In this document: positions 5,181 through 16,851 of the stretch, piece after piece
Layout of the letters: each line of letters begins with the position of its first letter
Numbering within the stretch: the first letter of the stretch is position 1
Assembly: GCA_013036105.1 (NCBI GenBank)
Contig: JAAXCX010000015.1
Location: forward strand, 1-54,233
Length of the DNA: 54,233 nucleotides
Direction: 5' to 3'
DNA from: Vulcanimicrobiota bacterium
Lineage (GTDB): Bacteria; Vulcanimicrobiota; Vulcanimicrobiia; Vulcanimicrobiales; Vulcanimicrobiaceae
Translations under genes and position numbers: made by a program
The notes under the pieces: model-generated
The model's input: only the letters and a program-made list of their open reading frames with translations
Told to the model about the DNA's origin: nothing
Databases searched by the model: none

Positions 5181-7238
5181 ATGGCCATGCTGTTTCGCAA
5201 AATCGTCCCATCTGCGCTCATTTTGGCATTGCTGAGTGCCATATGCCCGGCACCCGCGCTCGCACTTTCGACAGCCAACGAGGTCGCCATCGGGCGAACC
5301 TACGATCAGCAGATCGTCGAAACCAGCGTCATCGAAACCGACCCGCTGCTTAACGCCTGGGTGCAGAGCGTCTCGTCCAAACTCTGGGCGCAGACCGCGC
5401 GCAAAGACGTTCCGTACAACGTCAAGATCATCGGCGACAGGAGCATCAACGCGTTCTCGACGCTCGGCGGCTACGTCTATGTGAACACCGGACTTTTGGA
5501 TTTCGTCCAATCGGACGACGAACTCGCGGCCGTCGTCGGCCACGAAACGGGACACATCGAACGGCGCCACACGGTCACGATGCAGTCCAAGTCCCAGATT
5601 TTGAGCATCCTGCTCGGCATCGCCTCGATCTTTTCGCCCTTCATCTATAACTTCGGTAACATTTTGCAGGCCGGCGCCATGGCCAAGATGGAGCGCGTAG
5701 ACGAGCTCCAGGCCGACGAATACGGCCTGCTGCTCATGTCGCGCGCCGGCTACGATCCGGAGGCGATGGTCACCATGCAGCAGCATCTGGGGGCGCTCGA
5801 CGGCGAACACAACGATCTCGTCACCAAATACTTTGAAAGCCACCCGGGTTCCGACGCGCGCATCTCGCATTTGCTTGGCTATCCCGAACTCGATCCAACG
5901 AAGGTCACCGCGCAGCAAAAACTCGTACGGGCGCAGCACGATCTCGACGAAGACCGCTACAATATCGCGGGCATTGACTTAAACGAGATCCTTAAGGCCG
6001 ATCCGTCGAACCAGGAGGCCCTGCTCGGACTCGGACAGAGCCAGCTCGCGCTCGGGCTCACAAGCAAGAGCGAGCAGACCTTAGGGACGCTGGCGCAAAG
6101 CACGTCGCCGCAAGTCAAAGCCGCCGCACTTCAGCGCATTGCGGCGCTGCGCTCCATGCAGGCGCGCCGCGTCGACCTTACGCGCCCCGACCTTGCAAGT
6201 CTGCGCGCGCAGATGCAGCAAGCGGTGCAAGTCCAGTCGCAAGCGCAAGCGCAGATCGCCGCGCGTCACGATCAAGGTCACAGCCAGTTAAAATCGCTTC
6301 AGCTGCGCATGGAAGCGATCCAGTACGAAATTCCGGACTTTAGTTCGATCGACGTCAAACACGGTTCGCGCCTGGAAGCCGTCGTAAAAACAATCAACGG
6401 CATGGGCCGTTCGGTCAACAGCGCTTTTCAAGACGCAACCTCATCCATCGATGACATCGGATCGATCGACGCGAAAACGAACAAACCTGACGGCCTGCTG
6501 CGCGAGAACGCGCAAATCTTGGACGAGATGCAGGCGCCGCTCAATGTGAATCCGATTCCCTCGGATTCGATCGCCATCTTCCCCTCGTACCCGCACATGA
6601 TCGGGGACATCTCGAGCGCCGACGCCGACATGGAGCGTTCGGTAGACGCCGGCCGCGCGGCAGCGATGCAGCTCGACAGCGGACTTGCCGATCTCGACGC
6701 ATTCTTCAAACGCCTGCAGCAGATCCGCCTGAACGCATTCGGTGACATCGATCAGTTCGACTACACGTCGTTGCTGCCGTACATGCAGAAAGCAACGGCG
6801 TCGCTCGGCGCTTCAGCGATTTCAGCGTCTCAGGCAAAACAGCTCCTCAACCTGGCAAAAGCGCGGCAACTTTCGACACGTATCACGCTGCTCGGCGTGG
6901 GGACGTCGCCGCAGCGCTACGATACGCTGCAAAAAGCGATCAACTTGCGCTGGAATGTTGACGACATCGACTACATCGGCATGCTGCACGACAACGTCAC
7001 GCCGGGCGAGATTGCGGTCGCTTCCATCATCGCGGCCGACTATAAGACCTCGCCGCAAGCCATCATTCGTGAAGCACATGAAACGCACCGCAGCGTCATC
7101 GACGTCGCCAACGCCCGCGGGATGCACGCGCTGGCCCTCGAGATCTTCATGGGACTCATCTATCTGGACTACACGGACGACCCCGCTAAAGAAGCCCACC
7201 CGGACGGAACCGTAACAAATCAGAACTCCGACGTGTAG
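5181..7238 (+). CDS. Secreted M48-family zinc metallopeptidase with long C-terminal region, 685 aa
   Basis: Probable periplasmic quality-control peptidase of the BepA/LoiP kind. Signal peptide at about 1-29 (LILALLSAICPAPALA). The catalytic motif HETGH is at 121-125 and the third zinc ligand E175 lies in ELQADEYG (ExxAD). NAFSTLGGYVYVNTGL at 90-105 is the usual strand before the active site. From about residue 235 a helical, TPR-like region begins (ILKADPSNQEALLGLGQSQLA), followed by a long coiled, Q- and S-rich part unlike standard family members. BepA, which also pairs M48 with TPR, works on outer-membrane protein assembly, consistent with the envelope-heavy window. Start at ATG 5181; a second ATG lies two codons later. 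Nine bases separate it from the next gene. Confidence 0.88.
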   Translation: MAMLFRKIVPSALILALLSAICPAPALALSTANEVAIGRTYDQQIVETSVIETDPLLNAWVQSVSSKLWAQTARKDVPYNVKIIGDRSINAFSTLGGYVYVNTGLLDFVQSDDELAAVVGHETGHIERRHTVTMQSKSQILSILLGIASIFSPFIYNFGNILQAGAMAKMERVDELQADEYGLLLMSRAGYDPEAMVTMQQHLGALDGEHNDLVTKYFESHPGSDARISHLLGYPELDPTKVTAQQKLVRAQHDLDEDRYNIAGIDLNEILKADPSNQEALLGLGQSQLALGLTSKSEQTLGTLAQSTSPQVKAAALQRIAALRSMQARRVDLTRPDLASLRAQMQQAVQVQSQAQAQIAARHDQGHSQLKSLQLRMEAIQYEIPDFSSIDVKHGSRLEAVVKTINGMGRSVNSAFQDATSSIDDIGSIDAKTNKPDGLLRENAQILDEMQAPLNVNPIPSDSIAIFPSYPHMIGDISSADADMERSVDAGRAAAMQLDSGLADLDAFFKRLQQIRLNAFGDIDQFDYTSLLPYMQKATASLGASAISASQAKQLLNLAKARQLSTRITLLGVGTSPQRYDTLQKAINLRWNVDDIDYIGMLHDNVTPGEIAVASIIAADYKTSPQAIIREAHETHRSVIDVANARGMHALALEIFMGLIYLDYTDDPAKEAHPDGTVTNQNSDV

Positions 7239-7247
7239 TAGCCGTTA

Positions 7248-8231
7248 ATGGCCACTGCAACCGGCGAAATTCTTCGCCTCGTCCGTAAGGGCATCGACGT
7301 CCGCGCCGTGACCGCGCATACCCGCAAGCCCTTCAGGCTCTATTTGTGCGGCGACCCGGCGCTGGTCGCGTCGATGCGTTCGCTGCTGCTCTCGGGACAC
7401 GACGATTCCGTTCCGCTCGACGCGGCCGCTTGCTTAGAAACGATCGTCCCGGGAATGGCGCAAGTCACCATGACGCGCGAAGGACGCGCGATTCTCTTCC
7501 TCGGTCGCCGCGGCGACTCGCGCGGCGCGGATTTCGCGGCGCTGCGCGCACTCGATTTGCCGATCTTCGCCATTACCGTTGACGAAGACGCACCGCCCGG
7601 CGGTCCTTCAACAGCGCCCGTTGCGGGCGCAACCGGCGAATATATCGTCACTGCTGTTTCGAAAGAGGCGCTGCGCGGACGCGTATTTCCGCACCTGATC
7701 GAGCGCTGCAAAGGCGTTGAGATCGCCGTCGGCCGCAGACTCCCGGTTCTGCGCGAAACCGTCGCCGCGAAACTCACACGCGACGCAGCTAACAATGCAC
7801 TCAAGGTCGCGCTTGCAAGCGCCGTCGTCGATCACATTCCCGTCTTCGGTTTAGTGCTCGGCGCCTTCGCTTCGGCGGGGGACATGGTAGCGATCACCGG
7901 CATCCAAATGATGCTGCTGCTCCATGTCGAGGCAACCTACGGGCGCGATCCCGACGTACAGCGCTTATGGCAACTGCTTCCGGTGGTCGGCGGCGGATTC
8001 GGCTGGCGCATGCTGGCGCGCGAACTTTCGGGATTCATTCCGGTCGCGGGCATCGCCATTAAAGGCGCCATCGCCTATGCGGGCACGATCGTCGTCGGCG
8101 AGGGCGTCACGTTTTACTACGAGCACGGACGGCACATGAGCGCCGGGCAGGCGAGCTCGATCTATGAGAACACCAAAAAAGATGCGCTCGGCTTCGCGCG
8201 CGAGCTCATGACCCGTTTTACAAAACGCTAA
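7248..8231 (+). CDS. DUF697-type membrane protein, 327 aa
   Basis: The C-terminal half (about 175-320) resembles DUF697/YcjF-like proteins: a hydrophobic, glycine-rich pattern with VDHIPVFGLVLGAF, AITGIQMMLLLHVEATYG, and FIPVAGIAIKGAIAYAGT followed by VVGEGVTFYYEHG. The N-terminal half is soluble, with FRLYLCGDPALVASMRSLLL and ILFLGRRGDSRGADF resembling a Rossmann or degenerate GTPase fold, but no P-loop is visible. DUF697 is often fused to GTPases, so this may be a GTPase-like protein that has lost its nucleotide site. Probably cotranscribed with the M48 gene nine bases upstream. Its 3' end overlaps the convergent RDD gene by 14 bases. Confidence 0.65.
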   Translation: MATATGEILRLVRKGIDVRAVTAHTRKPFRLYLCGDPALVASMRSLLLSGHDDSVPLDAAACLETIVPGMAQVTMTREGRAILFLGRRGDSRGADFAALRALDLPIFAITVDEDAPPGGPSTAPVAGATGEYIVTAVSKEALRGRVFPHLIERCKGVEIAVGRRLPVLRETVAAKLTRDAANNALKVALASAVVDHIPVFGLVLGAFASAGDMVAITGIQMMLLLHVEATYGRDPDVQRLWQLLPVVGGGFGWRMLARELSGFIPVAGIAIKGAIAYAGTIVVGEGVTFYYEHGRHMSAGQASSIYENTKKDALGFARELMTRFTKR

Positions 8232-8949
8232 GTCGCGTCAGCAACGCTTCGTCGTTTAACTGCTGAAGATCGCGCGAGACGCGCGGACGCACGCGCTCGG
8301 CAATTTTCGATGCCATCATAGCTCGGCTGTGCGGCACCATTCCTTCGCGGCGCGCGACAAACTGATCGATGAGCGCGCGCTCGTGAGAGCTCAGCATGAG
8401 CGGATGCGCATCCGTCGTTTCTTCCAAGAGATCCGCCAGCGTTGCGGCGCGCACGTCACGTACGACTATCGTTCCGGCCGCCATATCGCCCAGCCGTTTG
8501 TTTTCGGGAGACAAAATCGCCGCAACGGCGCTAAGCGCGTAGAGTCCGGCGACGAATTCGCCAACGCGAATAAGATTGCGAATGGCGACGCTTCCAAAGT
8601 CTGCCGGATAGCCGCCGTCGCGCACGACGCGCAAGCCCATCATTTTTTTTCCGGGCGTCTGGCCGTTCCAAAATGCTTCGAAGAGAATGAAGTAGCCGAA
8701 GAAAACGATGAAGACGATCGCGATGAAGAACGCGATAGCCAGATTCGTCTCGATTTTCGTCGGTTCGGAGAAGTGGCGCGCGGCAATCCCGTGAGTCCCG
8801 GCATAGATCAATCCCCAGATAATGCCGAGCATCACCAGCGTCTGAATGGTGACGTCGATCGCAACGGCCAAAAAGCGGCTGCCCAGCCCGGCGAGTTCGT
8901 AAGAGAACGCGATGCTTTCGGGCGTGCGAACTTCCAGCGTTCGATCCAT
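8218..8949 (-). CDS. RDD-family membrane protein
   Basis: Inner-membrane protein with the RDD fold. Diagnostic residues are the opening LGSRFLAVAIDVTIQ (R-x5-D), the GQTPGKKMMGLRVVRDGG loop between the second and third membrane segments, and SPENKRLGDMAAGTIVV after the last one. Three hydrophobic segments are visible. A C-terminal cytoplasmic tail of about 75 residues follows the core. RDD proteins next to SpoIIM, DUF58 and MoxR genes are a recurring arrangement, though biochemical function is not established. Transcribed divergently from the SpoIIM-like gene. Confidence 0.88.
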   Translation of the reverse strand: MDRTLEVRTPESIAFSYELAGLGSRFLAVAIDVTIQTLVMLGIIWGLIYAGTHGIAARHFSEPTKIETNLAIAFFIAIVFIVFFGYFILFEAFWNGQTPGKKMMGLRVVRDGGYPADFGSVAIRNLIRVGEFVAGLYALSAVAAILSPENKRLGDMAAGTIVVRDVRAATLADLLEETTDAHPLMLSSHERALIDQFVARREGMVPHSRAMMASKIAERVRPRVSRDLQQLNDEALLTRLSVL

Positions 8950-8982
8950 CGCACCGCGCCTTCGCCCCGCGGCATGGCATAG

Positions 8983-8998
8983 GCCCCCTCCGGGGGGC
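8983..8998. promoter_or_regulatory. GC-rich hairpin in the RDD/SpoIIM divergent gap
   Basis: GCCCCC (8983-8988) pairs with GGGGGC (8993-8998) around the four-base loop TCCG. It lies 30 bases ahead of the SpoIIM-like start within an 80-base divergent gap. No T-run follows, so a leader structure or binding site is more likely than a terminator. Confidence 0.35.
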
Positions 8999-9028
8999 AG
9001 TTCGCGGCGGGCGACGCATTACTCCAGA

Positions 9029-9994
9029 GTGGATCAGCGTTCGTTCGTCCGGCGGCGCGGCCGGGCATGGGAGCGTTTAGAGCTGTTACTCGCCCGCACC
9101 GGCCGGCGCGGTTTGCGCGCCCTGGACGCGGCGGAACTCTTTGAAGCCGGCAAGTTGTACCGTTGGGTCACGTCGGATCTCGCCTACGCGCAAGGGCACG
9201 GCTACGGCGCCGAGCTGCGGCACTACCTGAACCGGTTGGTCGCGCGATCGCACGCCTTAGTGTACGGCGCCGCCGTCGAGCCCGGACGAACGCGCATCCT
9301 GCGGTTCTTCACGCAGACTTTTCCGCGCGAGTTCCGCCGGTCGTGGCCGTATATCGGAGCCTGTGCCGCGATCACGATCGTCTGGGCGCTGATCGCATTC
9401 GCAATCGTCAGCTCGCATCCGGCAAATGCCTACGCGCTTCTGCCCGACTCGATCGTGCCGTCGCACCTTACCAGGAGCCTGCACGATTCGAATTTTAATT
9501 TCACATCGGAATATTCGTCCAAAATGTCGGCTGAAATCATTACGAACAACATCCGGGTGGCGGTGCTCGCGTTCGCCGGCGGAATCGTGACACTCGGACT
9601 GTTCACGATCTATGAATTGACGATCACGGGCTTAATGGTTGGCGGCCTCGCGGCGCTCTATGGGCAAGCCGGGTTCGGCGCCGATTACTGGGCGACGATC
9701 GCGCCGCACGGCGTCATCGAATTGACCGCCATTCAAGTCGCCGCGGCCGCCGGGCTGCTGCTCGCGGCGGGCGTACTCAACCCCGGCAGGCTGAGGAGAC
9801 GCGACGCGATTGCGCAGAACGGAGGTCGGGCCGGAATCTTGGTCGGCGGCGTCGTGGCGATGCTCTGCGTCGCCGGAATCATCGAAGGCTTTTTCACAAA
9901 CCTGCGTACCTCAATTCCGGTTCGCGACGCCGCGGGGGTTTTCACCGCGCTCGCGCTTTTCGCGTATTTCGGTTTCGCCGGACGCGAGCGCTGA
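9029..9994 (+). CDS. SpoIIM / DUF95-family membrane protein, 321 aa
   Basis: Polytopic inner-membrane protein related to stage II sporulation protein M. The start VDQRSFVRRRGRAWERLE at GTG 9029 matches the usual N-terminus; the frame extends upstream but runs into the divergent promoter. A soluble helical part (to about 95) precedes membrane segments starting at SWPYIGACAAITIVWAL. The signature NNIRVAVLAFAGGIVTLGLFT and the APHGVIELTA segment are clear. In non-sporulating bacteria the family accompanies RDD and MoxR/DUF58 genes; a role in membrane or wall remodelling is inferred, not known. Its stop is one base before the M48-RDD gene. Confidence 0.85.
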   Translation: MDQRSFVRRRGRAWERLELLLARTGRRGLRALDAAELFEAGKLYRWVTSDLAYAQGHGYGAELRHYLNRLVARSHALVYGAAVEPGRTRILRFFTQTFPREFRRSWPYIGACAAITIVWALIAFAIVSSHPANAYALLPDSIVPSHLTRSLHDSNFNFTSEYSSKMSAEIITNNIRVAVLAFAGGIVTLGLFTIYELTITGLMVGGLAALYGQAGFGADYWATIAPHGVIELTAIQVAAAAGLLLAAGVLNPGRLRRRDAIAQNGGRAGILVGGVVAMLCVAGIIEGFFTNLRTSIPVRDAAGVFTALALFAYFGFAGRER

Positions 9995-9995
9995 G

Positions 9996-11261
9996 ATGCG
10001 CGATCTCTTTCGCGGAAAGTTTTCCATCCGCCAACGCAATGAATGGCTGAGTCTGGCGATTACGCTGGCATTCGCGCCGGCGATTGCCTTTGTGATCGGC
10101 CGCTTCTGGCACGAGGTTATCGGCGTTTCGTCCGTCGGCGTTTTGGTCGTCGTTGCGATGGTCTACGTCACGATCGCCCGCGGTGCGCTGCTGGGCAGCT
10201 GCGTCATGATCACGCGCACGCAGTTTCCCGAGCTCTTTTCGGTCGTAGAACGCTGCGCGACGATGCTGGAACTGCCGATGCCGATGGTCTTTTTGCGCGA
10301 CGACATCCGCGTTCCGGTCGTCGCGGTCGGTTTCGGCGACCCGTACTCGCTGATTATTTCAACGCATTGGATCGATCACTTTAAAGAGGACGAATTAACG
10401 TTCGTCGTCGGGCGCGAGCTCGGACATATTGCCGCCGGACACACCCGCCTGACGTCGATTTTGAGCGTCAACGGACACGAGAACGCGATCGTCTCGCTCA
10501 TCTTCGGGGCTTGGCTAAGGCGAACGGAGTTTACGGCCGACCGCGCGGGGCTGCTCTGCTGCGGAAGTACGGACGCCGCGTACCGCGCGATCGCTCTGTG
10601 CGAATTTCATTTGTTCGCGCGTAAAGTGGACTTGGCCGCATTCGCGCAGCAGCGCGTAGAGATCGCGCACGATTCGGTGCTGCGCTTGGGAGAATGGCTC
10701 GCGCCCAATCCTTACGCCACCAACCGGATGGAAACGCTTCGTCTTTTCCACCATACCGCGCTCTACGAGTACTGGGAAGAGCGCCTCGTCACGCAACCGG
10801 CGTCGCTCGAACCGGTCGAGCATCGTTCCGGACTGGTCACCAAGAACGATTGCGCGAGTTTCGGCCGCCGCCTCGCGGCGATTGCGATCGATTATACGCT
10901 CGTCGCCGCCATCGGCAATTTGGTCGTGACGAGCGTGAGCTCCGTGCACCGGCCCGGAATCCACTGGAACGTCAACCTCGATTTCGGTCCGCTCGTCGGG
11001 TTTCTGCTCTACAATATCGTCCTTGTCGCGATCGCCGGGCAGACGTTCGGCATGATGATCGTATCCGTCCGCGTGACGAACACACACTTCGGCCGGCCCG
11101 CGCTCTTGCAAGTGATTTGGCGCTATCTGATCGCCACGCCGCTTTTCATTTTGAGCCTCCTCTGGCCGGGGTTTTGGCGCCTCGAGCTGCACGATCGCGC
11201 GTCCGGAACGCGCCTGGTCGGTTTGGAACGCACGCTGCAGCGCGCCGCGCTGCGGGCATAG
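9996..11261 (+). CDS. M48-like peptidase domain fused to an RDD membrane domain, 421 aa
   Basis: Two domains in one chain. Residues 1-65 hold two membrane segments; about 75-265 is an M48 peptidase fold; about 285-415 is an RDD domain opening with FGRRLAAIAIDYTLV and containing GQTFGMMIVSVRVT. The peptidase signature is altered: where HExxH is expected the protein reads RELGH (R140-E141-L-G-H144), so one zinc-binding histidine is replaced by arginine, while the third ligand E178 in EFTADRAG remains. It may be inactive or bind zinc differently. The ATG at 9996 follows the SpoIIM stop by one base, so the longer frame from 9810 is rejected. Ends two bases before the convergent DUF58 stop. Confidence 0.82.
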   Translation: MRDLFRGKFSIRQRNEWLSLAITLAFAPAIAFVIGRFWHEVIGVSSVGVLVVVAMVYVTIARGALLGSCVMITRTQFPELFSVVERCATMLELPMPMVFLRDDIRVPVVAVGFGDPYSLIISTHWIDHFKEDELTFVVGRELGHIAAGHTRLTSILSVNGHENAIVSLIFGAWLRRTEFTADRAGLLCCGSTDAAYRAIALCEFHLFARKVDLAAFAQQRVEIAHDSVLRLGEWLAPNPYATNRMETLRLFHHTALYEYWEERLVTQPASLEPVEHRSGLVTKNDCASFGRRLAAIAIDYTLVAAIGNLVVTSVSSVHRPGIHWNVNLDFGPLVGFLLYNIVLVAIAGQTFGMMIVSVRVTNTHFGRPALLQVIWRYLIATPLFILSLLWPGFWRLELHDRASGTRLVGLERTLQRAALRA

Positions 11262-11263
11262 CG

Positions 11264-12604
11264 CTAGAGCAGCCCGCGCTGTTTGACCAGCAAGTAGCGA
11301 TCGATCAGAGCGGTGGTGAGCTCCCGTGCGGGTACATCGATGACTTGCACGCCGAGGCGCTGCAAGATCGCGGCCGCCGCGCGCCGCTCGTCCCGCAGCT
11401 CGAGCGCAACCGCGGCCGCGTAAACGTCCGAGCTGCTCTTCGGAGCGGTCTCCAGCGCGCGATCGATCGCACGATCGTTCATGAAGACGCATATCACGAC
11501 GTGGCGTTTGGCCAACATGCCGATCTGCGCGAGCACCGAGCTTTGCGCGACGGGATCGACCATGTCGGTAAAAAAGACGATCAAACTCCGCTTGCGCACG
11601 TGGCTGCGCACGTAGGCGAACGCCTGCGCGTAGTCCGACTCTTCGAAACGCGGCTCCAAATCGTGCACTTGCGCAGCGATTGAGGAGATGGAACGTCCGG
11701 TGCGCGGAGCCTGCGCGCGCAGTATTTCGCCCGCGAACGCGACCAGTCCGATCTTGTCGTTTGCCAGCGATGCAATCGACGCGACCGAAAGCGCGGCGGT
11801 GATCGCATAATCGAACTTCCGCTGTTCGTCGACGCGCGGCGTCATGAGCCGGCCGGCGTCCAGCACGATCATGACGTTTTGACTGCGCTCCACTTCGTAT
11901 TCGGCAACCATCAAACGTCCGCGCCGCGCCGTCGCCTTCCATTCGATCGAGCGGAATTGATCGCCCGGCGCCCAGTCACGCAGGTTTTCCAACTCCGTCC
12001 CCGTGCCGCGCAAACGCATGCGCCGCAGGCCCGCATCGATGAGGCGGTTACGAACGTGCAGCGCTCCGTACCGTTCAACCGCAGAAAGATCCGGTAAGAC
12101 CCGGATCGGCTGCAGTGCCTGGAACCGCAGTCTACGGCTAAGCAACCCGAATTGGTTTTGCACGGTAACGAAAATCGTTCCGAGCGCGTCGCTGCCGCGC
12201 GCGACCGGTATCACGCTACGCTCAGCAAATGCCTCACTGTGCGGTGGCACAGAAACGGCAATCTCGTCTTGGGGATATCGTAAGACGCGGCAATCGCTTT
12301 CGATCAGGTTCAAGCGCAACGCGGCGCCGGAGCGGTTACGGACGCGGTAACGCAGCACGCCCGGTGCGCGCAGCGCGAATGGCTCGGGCACCTCGCGATC
12401 GATCTCAAGTGCGGCGCGCGCCACCCCGGTAAACGCATCGGCAAGCGCGCCGGCGGCGAGTGCGGCCGCGCACAACGCTGCTAAAATCAGAAATGCCGGA
12501 AGCGCGCCGCCAACGGCCAGCAAAAGCGCAAGTATCGCCAGCGCCCAATACGCGCGCGGCGCGGGCCAGACGCCGGCGAAGCGCGATTTAGGGCGCGTCT
12601 TCAC
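11264..12604 (-). CDS. DUF58-domain protein (vWA-like), 446 aa
   Basis: Two N-terminal membrane segments (20-55), then a beta-rich domain and the DUF58 signature RGTGTELENLRDWAPGD (199-215) followed by IEWKATARRGRLMVAEYE. A von Willebrand A-like fold starts at NVMIVLDAGRLM, where the usual DxSxS metal site is degenerate (DAGRL). DUF58 proteins are the standard partner of MoxR ATPases, probably acting as membrane-anchored adaptor or substrate. GTG start at 12604 overlaps the MoxR stop by 17 bases, indicating coupled translation. Confidence 0.88.
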   Translation of the reverse strand: MKTRPKSRFAGVWPAPRAYWALAILALLLAVGGALPAFLILAALCAAALAAGALADAFTGVARAALEIDREVPEPFALRAPGVLRYRVRNRSGAALRLNLIESDCRVLRYPQDEIAVSVPPHSEAFAERSVIPVARGSDALGTIFVTVQNQFGLLSRRLRFQALQPIRVLPDLSAVERYGALHVRNRLIDAGLRRMRLRGTGTELENLRDWAPGDQFRSIEWKATARRGRLMVAEYEVERSQNVMIVLDAGRLMTPRVDEQRKFDYAITAALSVASIASLANDKIGLVAFAGEILRAQAPRTGRSISSIAAQVHDLEPRFEESDYAQAFAYVRSHVRKRSLIVFFTDMVDPVAQSSVLAQIGMLAKRHVVICVFMNDRAIDRALETAPKSSSDVYAAAVALELRDERRAAAAILQRLGVQVIDVPARELTTALIDRYLLVKQRGLL

Positions 12605-13553
12605 GTGGAATCGCGACGGACTCCAAGATTTCGCGCACGACCTTCAGCGCCGTCACGCCGTCGATCTCGGCTTGCGGCGCAACGATCAATCGATGCGGCA
12701 GCACGAACGCCGCCACATCCTTGACGTCGTCCGGCGTCGCGTAATCGCGGCCGTCGATCGCCGCCGACGCTTGCGCCGCGCCAAGCAGCGAAACGCCGGC
12801 GCGCGGGCTGGCTCCCAAACTCAGGGCACGATGCGAGCGCGTCGCAGCGATCAGGTCGTAAATGTACTGCTGCACCGGCGCCGCCACGCGCACGCCGCGC
12901 ACTTCGCTTTGGGCGGTCGTGATTTCGCCGGCATTTGCGACGGGCTTGAGCGCGTTCGGCTCGATTGCGCGTGCATCGAAACCCGCGGCGACGCGCGAAA
13001 GCAGATCGAGTTCGGCGGCCGCCGGCGGATAGCCGGCAATGGCCATCACCAAGAATCGGTCGAGTTGCGCTTCGGGCAATGGGTAAGTGCCTTCATACTC
13101 GATCGGATTTTGCGTGGCGCAGACGAAGAACGGGCGCGGAAGCTGCAGCGGCACGCCGTCGATCGTGACGCGGCCTTCCTCCATCGCTTCAAGCAGCGCC
13201 GATTGCGTTTTAGGAGGAGTGCGGTTGATCTCGTCCGCCAGCAAGAAATTCGTGACGATCGGTCCGGGCCGCATGCTGAACTCGGCGCTCTGCGGGTTGA
13301 AGACGGTCGTTCCGACGACGTCGGCGGGCATCAAATCGGGCGTGAACTGGATGCGCCGGTACTGCGCCCCCAACAGCGCGGCTAAAGCTCGAACGGCGAG
13401 CGTCTTACCCGTCCCGGGAACGCCTTGGATCAGCGCATGCCCGCGGGCCAGCAACGCGACCAAAAGCGCGAACGTTAATTCATCGCCTCCCACGATGATC
13501 TCGCGCATTCCCGCGCCGACGCGTTCAGCTACATTCGCAGCGGTCGTTACCAT
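12588..13553 (-). CDS. MoxR-family AAA+ ATPase
   Basis: Hexameric chaperone-type AAA+ ATPase. Walker A GVPGTGKT at 44-51, Walker B LLADEINR at 104-111, sensor 1 ATQNP at 146-150, and the arginine finger in EAQLDRF at 161-167. GPIVTNFLLADEINRTPPKT is typical of the MoxR branch. The C-terminal lid carries SLGASPRAGVSLLGAAQA. With DUF58, DUF4350 and DUF4129 neighbours it likely promotes maturation of a membrane or secreted complex. It overlaps the upstream DUF4350 stop by seven bases. Confidence 0.94.
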   Translation of the reverse strand: MVTTAANVAERVGAGMREIIVGGDELTFALLVALLARGHALIQGVPGTGKTLAVRALAALLGAQYRRIQFTPDLMPADVVGTTVFNPQSAEFSMRPGPIVTNFLLADEINRTPPKTQSALLEAMEEGRVTIDGVPLQLPRPFFVCATQNPIEYEGTYPLPEAQLDRFLVMAIAGYPPAAAELDLLSRVAAGFDARAIEPNALKPVANAGEITTAQSEVRGVRVAAPVQQYIYDLIAATRSHRALSLGASPRAGVSLLGAAQASAAIDGRDYATPDDVKDVAAFVLPHRLIVAPQAEIDGVTALKVVREILESVAIPREDAP

Positions 13554-14605
13554 TCGTAATCCTTTCGCAACTGCGCGAAGATCGTTCCCGCTAGCAGGAC
13601 CTCGCGCGGTCCGGCATCCCTGCGTTCCCCAAGCCGGCGCAACTCGTCAAAGGCCGCGCGTCCGCGTTCGTCGCCCGGCGGCGAACGAAAGCCGGCTGCC
13701 GCGCGTGCCAGCCTAGTGATGACGTCATGCGCCGCGCCGCCGCGCTGCAGCATTCGGGCCAACGATTCAATGTAGGCCAAAGAATTACGTTGGTCGTCAC
13801 GCTCGAGCGCCCGCGCCGGCGCAAGGCGCACATTCGCGGCCACGATCGCCAGCAGCAACGCGATCAACGCGACGATAACCGCCGCAATCACGGGCCGCGG
13901 CATCACCTCCCAGAACGTGCGCCCGGCGGCGTACCCATACACGCGCTCGTCGAACAACGGAGCCCGCGCAGCGGCAAACAGATCGTAGGCGAACGCGGCG
14001 TTGTCGTGCGCGGCCAGCTGCGCGTTGCCAAAAAGCGATGGCGTCACGAACTCCACAATGGTTCCGCGTCCGCGTTTGAGCGAAACGGCAACCGCTCCGC
14101 CGCGCGCCATCAGCAGCACCGAATGTTTGCTGTCGCACACCGTCTGCAGGACCGAAGCAAAATCTCCGCCGACCACGCGGCGCGCGCCGCGGAAACCGCA
14201 TCCCGTCCGCGCCACCTTACTGACCGCCGAGCGCGTCTTGGGAAGGCCGAGCGAGTCGCGCGTGAACGGAAACATGCTTCCGAGCACGATCAGTTTTCCG
14301 CCGCGGCGTACCCATGTATCGAGCGCGGCCGATTCCTTGGCGGAAAGGACCGAATCAATCGTGTAGTCGCCCGCGAACACGATCGTCGCGCCCGCGGGTA
14401 ACTCCCCCATCGGGAGCTCGTAGCGCTGCGCATCGACGCCTTCGCGCTGCAAGAATTCGTACAGGGCGGCATAGCCGTTCGCTCCCGTATCGTAGGTTGA
14501 AGGGAACGACGAGTGCGCGCGCGGCGCCGCAGCACGCAGCGCGGACAACACCGTGAAGAGCAGCAGCGCTACGATCAAGATCGCGATCTCGGTGCGGTTA
14601 CGCAT
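13547..14605 (-). CDS. DUF4350-domain membrane protein, 352 aa
   Basis: A membrane segment at about 5-25 is followed by a periplasmic-type domain: SFPSTYDTGANGYAALYEFL, then TWVRRGGKLIVLG, which is the glutamine-amidotransferase-like DUF4350 fold. A second membrane segment lies near 250-275, and a cytoplasmic helical tail closes the protein. Start MRNRTEIAILIVALLL at 14605 chosen over the longer frame at 14683, whose extra residues are arginine-rich and overlap the preceding gene. Proteins of this kind recur between MoxR and DUF4129 genes; no activity is known. Confidence 0.8.
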   Translation of the reverse strand: MRNRTEIAILIVALLLFTVLSALRAAAPRAHSSFPSTYDTGANGYAALYEFLQREGVDAQRYELPMGELPAGATIVFAGDYTIDSVLSAKESAALDTWVRRGGKLIVLGSMFPFTRDSLGLPKTRSAVSKVARTGCGFRGARRVVGGDFASVLQTVCDSKHSVLLMARGGAVAVSLKRGRGTIVEFVTPSLFGNAQLAAHDNAAFAYDLFAAARAPLFDERVYGYAAGRTFWEVMPRPVIAAVIVALIALLLAIVAANVRLAPARALERDDQRNSLAYIESLARMLQRGGAAHDVITRLARAAAGFRSPPGDERGRAAFDELRRLGERRDAGPREVLLAGTIFAQLRKDYEW

Positions 14606-15233
14606 ATGGGGCCCCGGCCGGCAGCGCGACGTACGCGTCGTGCGCTTCCATCCATTGCTCGCGCGCGACGGGCGTTTCGGCATAGAATGCCGCGACGAAG
14701 GGCCGAGCGATCGCGTCGAACGCGGGCAAGACCGAAGGCTGCGTTCCGCGCAGCGTGCGCCGCCACTCGTTGACGGTACGGCTGGGGTCTTCGCGGGCGA
14801 TGCCCAGCCGTTCCAAACGCCGCATGGCCGCGGCGAACAGCAGTGCGACCGCCATGCGATAATCGCCGCGCGCAGCGGCTTCGCGGCTCAACTCGTAGAG
14901 TGCGACGGGATCGGGCGATTCCGGAAGCGCGCGCGCGGCATCGGGGCGCCGCGCATCGCGAATCGACCCGAGCGCCAAACGCACGAGCACGACCACGACG
15001 ACGGCGATCAGCGCGAAGGCCAGTGCGTCACCGATGATCACGCTCGCACGGCTTCCGATGTGCACGTGCGAGAAAAGCGCATCCCACACGCGCGACCACA
15101 ATCCGCGCAGCCAATCCCACAACATTTCCCACGCCGTGCGATGCGTAGACGGCACCGCCACTTGAAAACGTCTCTGCGAAAGAATATCACGCGCGAGATC
15201 GCGCGCGCCCAGCGGCGGCCGGCTCGCGGTCAT
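14598..15233 (-). CDS. DUF4129-domain membrane protein, 211 aa
   Basis: N-terminal soluble part with tryptophan-rich helix (TAWEMLWDWLRGLWSRVWDAL), a membrane segment at about 68-88 (ALAFALIAVVVVVLVRLAL), then the cytoplasmic DUF4129 helical domain: AARGDYRMAVALLFAAAMR, RLERLGIAREDPSRTVNEWR and RPFVAAFYAETP. First or second gene of the MoxR operon as transcribed, overlapping DUF4350 by eight bases and its upstream neighbour by four (ATGA). Confidence 0.78.
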   Translation of the reverse strand: MTASRPPLGARDLARDILSQRRFQVAVPSTHRTAWEMLWDWLRGLWSRVWDALFSHVHIGSRASVIIGDALAFALIAVVVVVLVRLALGSIRDARRPDAARALPESPDPVALYELSREAAARGDYRMAVALLFAAAMRRLERLGIAREDPSRTVNEWRRTLRGTQPSVLPAFDAIARPFVAAFYAETPVAREQWMEAHDAYVALPAGAPYA

Positions 15234-16165
15234 TCCAGCCGGTCGAGCTGCGTCTGTATATCGAGACCTTCGCGCCGGACCCGAACGTCGAAATAGTACA
15301 CCGCGAAAAGTAAAGCCGTAAAGGTGCTGCTGACGAGCGAGATCGGAGCGGTCAAAATTCCGTAGAGGACGAGCGAATGCGTTATCCCTTGAGCGAGCGC
15401 GGCGACGATTCCGAGTACAATGTACAATCCGATGGAGATCGCAATGAGCGCGAGGAAAACGAGAATCGCACGCCCGAGCTCGCGACGGTTGAAAATCCTT
15501 GCAAAGCCGGAGCTGATCGCCTCAAAAACGCCGGCATGTTCGACCACGATGGAAATGAATGCAAAACCCATTGCGAAGACGCACAGCGCCAGCGACAACA
15601 GCCAAGCAATCATGAAGATGGCGGCCAAGACGCCGAACACGATAATGGCGGCCGTCGAACCGCGCACCAAAAATATGCCGGCCGCAAAGACCGCGCCGAA
15701 TGCAAACGCCCCCGCAATCACCGCCGCGCCGACGATGACAATCGTCATCAGTTCGGCTCCCAAAATGGCCGGCCATCGCCGCAACGCGGCGCCGTAACAC
15801 TGGCGCCACGCCGGGCGCTGGGAGCGGTAAAGATCGGCAACCCCCGACGCCGTCGCCGTGTTCGCAAACGGCAGCAAGAGCAGCTGCAGCAGCAGTACCA
15901 GCATCAGAATGCCTTCAAACTGCATCAATCGAGAGAAAAGAATGGGTGACGGCGTGCTGGCCGGGTGCGTCGCCTGCTGCAGCACCTGTTGATACGCCCC
16001 GCTGCCGTAAGTCGAAAAGTAGGACGCTACCGTTAGCGGGAGGATGACCACCATCATGATGAGCGTGAAGAGCCCGAAATACCGCACATAGAGTGTGACC
16101 GTGCGGTCGAAAATTTCGCCGATGCTCAACGGCCGAAGCGGCAAGGCGTCACCCGCAATGCTCAT
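15230..16165 (-). CDS. Polytopic membrane protein of the glycerophosphoryl-diester-phosphodiesterase membrane-domain type, 311 aa
   Basis: The opening LPLRPLSIGEIFDRTVTLYVRYFG is characteristic of this membrane family. At least six hydrophobic segments follow, including LFTLIMMVVILPLTVASYF and ILGAELMTIVIVGAAVIAG. No phosphodiesterase catalytic domain is fused. Start ATG at 16165 is preceded by AAGGGCGG and fits the motif; the frame to 16243 adds unrelated residues. First gene of the operon that ends with DUF58, divergent from the MOSC gene. Confidence 0.75.
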   Translation of the reverse strand: MSIAGDALPLRPLSIGEIFDRTVTLYVRYFGLFTLIMMVVILPLTVASYFSTYGSGAYQQVLQQATHPASTPSPILFSRLMQFEGILMLVLLLQLLLLPFANTATASGVADLYRSQRPAWRQCYGAALRRWPAILGAELMTIVIVGAAVIAGAFAFGAVFAAGIFLVRGSTAAIIVFGVLAAIFMIAWLLSLALCVFAMGFAFISIVVEHAGVFEAISSGFARIFNRRELGRAILVFLALIAISIGLYIVLGIVAALAQGITHSLVLYGILTAPISLVSSTFTALLFAVYYFDVRVRREGLDIQTQLDRLE

Positions 16166-16215
16166 GCGCCGCCCTTCTTGAGGGTTTGAAGCGGGTCCTA
16201 TGGTATTCAAAGCGG

Positions 16216-16851
16216 ATGCAGCTGCTCGGGCAGATCGCCGCAATCACTCGCTATCCCGTCAAAAGCATGGCCGGTGAAGAATTGCAATCCGCGGAGTTCG
16301 GGCTCGACGGCATCCCCGGCGACCGCGAAGCCGCCTTCTTCGTCACCGCAGGCCACGCGCGCACGGGCAAGACATATCGCGGAAAAGAGCACAACCTGCT
16401 TCACCTCACAAGCGACACCGAGCGCGCGCAGAATCTCGCGCGCGAAAAAAACGTCGCTGTGGAGCTGCGCCGCGGCTCACGGTATTTTGATGATGCGCCG
16501 ATTTCGCTGATCTTCGACCGCTGGGTCGAGGAAGTTTCCGCCGGTCTCGGGCGGCCGATGGATTTCCGGCGGTGGCGTCCGAATCTCTATGCGCGCGCGG
16601 CCGAAGATTTCGCATTCGCGGAAAACGAGCTGACCGGTAGCGCGATCGAGATGGGGACAGCCGTCTTGCGCGTCCGCTACCCGATCGAACGCTGTGTGGC
16701 AACCACATACGATCCGGTGACGGGCGAACCCGACCCGGAAGTACTGCGCTACGTTGCGCAGCAGCGCGCTACTCTACTGGGCGTTTACTGCGATGTGGAG
16801 CTGGCGGGCGTCGCACGCACCGGCGACGCTTTGCGTTTGCGCGCGCGCTGA
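16216..16851 (+). CDS. MOSC-domain protein
   Basis: Molybdenum-cofactor sulfurase C-terminal (MOSC) type beta-barrel protein. MQLLGQIAAITRYPVKSMAGEEL is the normal N-terminus, GLDGIPGDREAAFF follows, and YPIERCVATTYDP near 155-170 carries the conserved cysteine thought to move sulfur or bind a sulfur-bearing cofactor. Length 211 is a stand-alone domain. ATG 16216 preferred; a TTG at 16186 gives ten more residues. The last 67 bases are antisense to the convergent winged-helix gene. Confidence 0.87.
   Translation: MQLLGQIAAITRYPVKSMAGEELQSAEFGLDGIPGDREAAFFVTAGHARTGKTYRGKEHNLLHLTSDTERAQNLAREKNVAVELRRGSRYFDDAPISLIFDRWVEEVSAGLGRPMDFRRWRPNLYARAAEDFAFAENELTGSAIEMGTAVLRVRYPIERCVATTYDPVTGEPDPEVLRYVAQQRATLLGVYCDVELAGVARTGDALRLRAR

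Follow-up and report, generated by a model that had tools for sequence, protein, structure and literature searches.

Is a member of the M48 peptidase family still a peptidase when the first histidine of its zinc-binding motif has become an arginine, and if it is not, what is the domain kept for? The question is raised by a gene in the window, by which we mean the whole stretch of 54,233 nucleotides of Vulcanimicrobiota DNA that was analysed. HtpX and BepA-type M48 peptidases police membrane and envelope proteins, and the product of this gene joins an M48-like domain to a membrane domain of the RDD family, with RELGH at the place of HExxH. We believe that the M48-like domain has very probably been retired as an enzyme and retained for some other task. 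The gene and the parts of its protein lie as follows:

9996–11261, + strand: M48–RDD fusion protein of 421 aa (ATG at 9996, stop codon ending at 11261)
10044–10175, + strand: two N-terminal hydrophobic segments, residues 17–35 and 42–60, preceded by a basic N-terminus (Kyte-Doolittle scan)
10221–10781, + strand: M48-like domain, about residues 76–262 (Pfam and profile alignment to HtpX 3cqb_A; C-terminal limit from alignments)
10314–10331, + strand: edge-strand position, residues 107–112, with P107 where canonical relatives have Asn
10413–10427, + strand: RELGH (R140 to H144), replacing HExxH
10527–10541, + strand: ExxxD segment, E178 to D182, where the window protein retains the third ligand
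10707–10727, + strand: plug motif N-P-x4-R (N238, P239, R244), replacing H-P-x4-R
10854–11198, + strand: RDD membrane domain, residues 287–401, with R292, D299 and D400 (Pfam and conservation)

Both parts of the protein are recognised by Pfam, Peptidase_M48 with its best stretch at residues 76–156 (E 2.5e-11, 44.2 bits against a cut-off of 20.3) and RDD at residues 287–401 (E 6.3e-11, 43.2 bits against a cut-off of 24.1), and among the family representatives the two models match 47/47 and 46/47 sequences, respectively. The NCBIfam cut-off for HtpX is missed (best score 34.8 against 355 bits), and no defence model of PADLOC matches the fusion at E 0.01. The motif reads VVGRELGHIAAGHT, which contains R140, E141 and H144, and a second segment, RRTEFTADRAG, supplies E178 and D182. 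When the family profile is aligned with HtpX chain 3cqb_A (E 0.00039), R140 lines up with the first of the two HExxH histidines. An earlier note on this DNA had read RELGH for HExxH with E141, H144 and E178 kept, and this is confirmed in the 421-aa frame. The Kyte-Doolittle scan finds three further hydrophobic segments after the M48 domain, in the RDD part, where R292 (76/81 family members), D299 (76/81) and D400 (63/81, with E in 10) would be, on our reading of the Pfam match, the Arg and the two Asp that name the RDD family. The M48 domain is probably cytosolic, judging from the basic N-terminus and charge and from the topology that we take HtpX to have. An AlphaFold prediction of the fusion from a five-sequence input had a mean pLDDT of 32.8.

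The first zinc-ligand position and the rest of the site

Of 148 relative genomes searched, 93 had a match, and a profile search of 149 genomes of the phylum gave some match in 112, with 88 counted as having the fusion family itself. All 88 belong to the window's class and there to the two families f1 and f3, with no fusion match in the four listed f2 genomes of the same order, and four loci close to the window fusion share 82–93% identity with it. Position 140 was read in 87 family members from 86 genomes, i.e. in 81 sequences with the motif read (R 78, K 1, A 1, C 1) and in six further ones, all with RELGH, giving R 84, K 1, A 1, C 1 and H 0; the K, A and C come from one genus each. The earlier note had proposed to see whether R is fixed in M48–RDD fusions and had named HExxH orthologues as the result that would speak against its reading. 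We find R nearly fixed and no intact HExxH among the 87 members, window included. Arg140 is encoded by five codons in the 78 R sequences (CGC 58, CGG 9, CGA 7, CGT 3 and AGG 1), CGC being somewhat commoner than across these genes at large. Given these five codons, with R in 84/87 members and H in none, the arginine is not a sequencing accident. It is also better conserved (78/81) than E141 (67/81, with Q in the other 14) or E178 (46), which, together with the five codons in use, suggests that R140 is selected and not drifting.

In a tree of 71 M48 domains, built with the ligand columns omitted, a branch with a support of 100/100 separates the 33 fusion-family rows from all others. The canonical relatives of the family have HExxH, including two (L161 and L167) with, by eye, an N-terminal hydrophobic stretch, and the tree set holds 26 such HExxH relatives with which the family can be compared. 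The zinc ligands of BepA are described as H136 and H140 of HExxH, E201, and H246 of the HPx4R plug conserved in PF01435 (PMC7950410). In the fusion family the equivalent of the plug His, position 238, is His in 0/80 sequences having a residue there, with P239 retained in 79/81 members and R244 in 80/81, and position 178 is E in 46 and a gap in one, the other 34 having T, A, D or S. H144 and D182 are each kept in 80/81. A missing plug His does not by itself imply inactivity, since 5/26 HExxH relatives lack it too and H246 mutants of BepA were reported as deregulated, not inactive (PMC7950410, PMC8423444); the case for inactivity rests mainly on the first ligand.

Might the domain still be a metalloenzyme with an altered site and an unusual activity, in which H144 and E178 are joined by another ligand, either C177/C181 or H149? 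H144 and D182 are almost invariant, and both C177 and C181 are present in 28/34 rows without E178, as would be expected if the cysteines had taken over. However, 12/46 rows that keep E178 carry both as well, for which reason a C177/C181 metal site was dropped. Furthermore, HExxH relatives share the two cysteines (L161: RRCELTCDRIGLYCAGS) and H149, the latter being present in all 26 of the tree set, so neither C177/C181 nor H149 are new ligands, and E178 and the plug His were lost without one fixed substitute. We consider an enzyme of this kind quite improbable. Weak or altered metal binding may nevertheless persist, to judge from H144 in 80/81 and E178 in 46/80 sequences.

A second change concerns substrate binding. 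Position 107 of the edge strand is Pro in 75/81 family members, whereas 81% of the 26 HExxH relatives have the edge-strand Asn. From the shared NAF motif, P107 would be equivalent to N105 of BepA, and N105P is among four named edge-strand mutants reported to generate fewer LptD degradation products (PMC8423444). Pro in the edge strand speaks against the usual substrate binding, which weakens the idea of the earlier note that the domain binds substrates, as far as the ordinary M48 mode is concerned. It also bears on the possibility that the domain keeps ordinary substrate binding and works on unfolded membrane segments as a holdase or adaptor. Such a role would fit the strong conservation of the domain and the report that the chaperone-like activity of BepA likewise depends on the edge strand (PMC8423444), but the Asn of that very strand has been replaced by Pro, the plug His is also lost, and we regard this role as unlikely.

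The altered domain is under strong constraint. R101, D103, S154, S157, E162, N163 and G171 are among the positions that vary in the 26 HExxH relatives and are at least 90% one residue in the family, and 27 columns are invariant across the 47 representatives. In 15 within-genus pairs, dN/dS ranges from 0.016 to 0.074 for the M48 region and from 0.102 to 0.203 for the RDD region, with the M48 region under tighter constraint in 15/15. Some copies do look damaged, as would be expected of a decaying pseudogene: the copy in G014 is interrupted, G037 has a match to residues 1–68 only, in an 85-aa open frame, and stops inside the match were flagged in G013, G047, G076 and G099. However, the frames in the last four are 423–452 aa long, which places the stop near the C-terminal end, dN/dS values far below 1 in 15/15 pairs contradict decay in the window's genus, and the invariant columns argue in the same direction, making a pseudogene hardly credible. 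In the case of G014 (locus L114), other g9 members carry longer copies. With R nearly fixed, no HExxH in any member read, and the plug His and edge-strand Asn gone in almost all members, the proposal of a pseudo-peptidase made in the earlier note is supported.

Genes next to the fusion

The gene neighbourhood offered a second line of reasoning about function, as the earlier note took the fusion to be coupled to SpoIIM and suggested that it may regulate the second RDD protein next door. The neighbours concerned are:

5181–7238, + strand: BepA-like M48 protein with intact HETGH, ELQAD and HPGSDAR, the active-type paralogue in the window
8218–8949, − strand: separate RDD protein of the conserved island (Pfam)
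8912–9994, + strand: SpoIIM-family gene directly upstream of the fusion, with a 1-nt gap (Pfam); as far as tested, a neighbour in the window's genus only
11264–12604, − strand: DUF58/vWA protein encoded in the island, convergently with the fusion (Pfam)
12588–13553, − strand: MoxR AAA ATPase of the island (Pfam)

Pfam identifies SpoIIM, the separate RDD protein, DUF58, MoxR, DUF4350 and DUF4129 around the fusion. When the window neighbours were used as single-protein queries on 80 loci, they were found only in the five other loci of the window's genus. SpoIIM, searched with its own Pfam model, occurs in 93/149 genomes, 67 of which have the fusion as well. The two genes lie less than 5 kb apart in 6/6 genomes of the window's genus with both, and a seventh genome searched of this genus, G001, shows neither gene, a pattern that would fit a functional coupling. 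Among the other 61 genomes with both genes, however, this distance is found in 0/61; in 10 they share a contig at 13 to 722 kb and in 51 they are on different contigs, the assemblies being drafts. The fusion occurs without a detected SpoIIM in 21/88 genomes, five of these 21 being at least 90% complete, and SpoIIM without the fusion in 26.

The same picture emerges from the side of SpoIIM. In 16 SpoIIM loci from 14 other genera the fusion gene was found in 0/16, and 12 of the genomes concerned hold the fusion elsewhere, with none counted in the other four. RDD, SpoIIM, DUF58 and MoxR occur together in 15 of these 16 loci, L213 being without a MoxR match. With linkage confined to the window's genus (0/61 genomes and 0/16 loci elsewhere), a general coupling to SpoIIM was rejected. 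That the fusion has a functional coupling to SpoIIM and acts as a regulator of the RDD protein next door is thus very improbable: the first half of the claim runs into the lack of linkage and the 21 genomes without detected SpoIIM, and the second is unsupported outside the window's genus, where the island occurs without the fusion. In the simplest view, it is in the window's genus alone that the fusion gene has come to adjoin SpoIIM, and the SpoIIM neighbourhood would then be a later local arrangement.

As an observation on the island itself, positions 5181–16243 of the window hold the RDD, SpoIIM, DUF58, MoxR, DUF4350 and DUF4129 genes and a membrane-protein gene, and this set is found in 15/16 of the SpoIIM loci of other genera. 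The BepA-like M48 gene, together with a gene matching window positions 7248–8231, is present in 9/16.

Other genes precede the fusion outside the window's genus, where neighbours are greedy longest-ORF picks and several families look like antisense artefacts. A PAS-GGDEF family gene is next upstream on the same strand in 23/75 loci from 10 genera, which opens a possible link to c-di-GMP signalling. A periplasmic-binding-protein family takes this place in 8/11 g9 loci and 1/2 g6 loci, and an Nramp family in 7/10 g36 loci; for each of the three families one representative was identified by Pfam. Such same-strand upstream neighbours may form operons with the fusion. We found no general partner of the fusion in its gene neighbourhoods and, as none of the three is general, claim none of them as a partner. 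By mechanical ORF calls, the PAS-GGDEF gene (L080, L085–L091, L094, L095 and 13 further loci) overlaps the fusion by 55–91 nt in 22/23 cases.

A possible role for the domain

We favour, with moderate confidence, the reading that the fusion contains a fixed, metal-free pseudopeptidase which, in the window's class, provides a membrane RDD protein with a cytosolic module for binding or regulation. This is supported by the retention of the RDD part in 46/47 representatives and by the fully supported branch (100/100) on which the family sits. The arginine at the first zinc-ligand position would fill the zinc site of the M48-like domain, where R140 probably pairs with the kept acidic residues, E178 where it is present and D182, in a salt bridge that would fix the shape of the former active site. 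A domain built in this way would hold no zinc and carry out no proteolysis, and the altered but near-invariant residues (R101, D103, S154, S157, E162, N163 and G171) may provide the contact surface for a partner or for the RDD domain of the same protein.

The comparison with known proteins shows what is shared and what is not. Like HtpX and BepA (PF01435), the fusion has the M48 domain, H144, E178 (in the window protein), D182, P239, R244 and two N-terminal hydrophobic segments; unlike them, it has Arg at the first His, Asn at the plug His, Pro at the edge-strand Asn and an attached RDD domain. For a Halobacillus RDD protein, Na+(Li+,K+)/H+ antiport has been reported (PMC5996927), and the fusion shares R292, D299 and D400 with this type of protein (PF06271), although here RDD is the C-terminal part of a putative pseudopeptidase. 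Among the known metallopeptidase pseudoenzymes is FtsHi4, with REAAV for HExxH (PMC11266112), which, like the fusion, belongs to a zinc-peptidase family, has Arg at the first ligand His and seems to represent a domain kept without catalysis. Unlike the fusion, FtsHi4 is an M41 chloroplast protein in which the second His is also missing.

Neither M48 nor RDD is a new family, and metallopeptidase pseudoenzymes are a known kind. The term M48 is absent from the main text of a 2024 review of inactive metallopeptidase homologues (PMC11266112), and literature searches on M48 pseudoproteases, M48 non-peptidase homologues, M48 with RDD and M48 in Eremiobacterota found no paper in the library searched. 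An M48 pseudopeptidase branch that is close to fixation in one class and joined to RDD, a membrane domain of uncertain function, would lengthen the list of metallopeptidase pseudoenzymes, and the family is a natural setting in which to test if arginine can structurally replace a zinc ion. On the side of annotation, passing an M48 cut-off alone should not earn such proteins the label of metalloprotease.

Arginine in other M48 proteins

The 71-domain tree contains a second M48 clade, from another phylum, with Arg at the first-ligand position (L171, L184, L185, L189, L191, L194–L196, L198, L199 and L201), and L122, from the window's phylum, has Lys there. Among the second-phylum proteins, those with R-E-x-[GA]-H (such as L171, L184, L191, L194–L196, L198 and L199) resemble the fusion in having Arg at the same position; unlike the fusion, the second-phylum Arg proteins form a separate clade, and profile matches to them do not reach the RDD part. 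The plug position of the 12 R or K rows outside the family (one being L122 with Lys) is Gln in 8/12 and His in 2/12. The HExxH rows L186, L187 and L200 are nested among the Arg rows of the second phylum, with L190 outside them, and two of these HExxH rows (L186 and L200) are without E178. The tree requires at least five transitions between His and another residue. Gain and reversal of Arg cannot be told apart in this second clade, several rows of which sit on long branches, and the nested HExxH members indicate that the step to Arg is perhaps not one-way there.

It is tempting, and rather doubtful, to see Arg-locked M48 pseudopeptidases as a recurrent, so far unrecognised class with separate origins, one in the Eremiobacterota class, RDD-fused and sensing or gating ion transport, and at least one in another phylum, with the guanidinium group standing in for zinc as the positively charged centre of the site. 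As for the fusion, no M48–RDD span was found among the matches listed, down to about E 2e-10, for 251 genomes of another phylum, where a fusion may split into two rows, as the window's own genus shows that one fusion can, and none of six RDD-type matches among those listed shares a contig with a listed M48-type match. An M48–RDD span was likewise absent from 4 genomes of a second group. Three more groups, of 1, 17 and 39 genomes, were searched at E 1e-28 without a positive control and gave nothing, and a scan of viral contigs yielded no further relatives.

Two other degenerate M48-like proteins were seen along the way. The genome of the window itself encodes a second one, L207 (G000:C6:50590-51171), a multi-helix protein that passes the M48 cut-off with RSFGW for HExxH and resembles what we take to be the CAAX/Ste24 type of peptidase. 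An M48-like family of the window's class (L121, L124, L180 and L182) has HELGA for HExxH and FSRDRYGA at the place of ExxxD and would, from these motifs, represent a different route of site loss.
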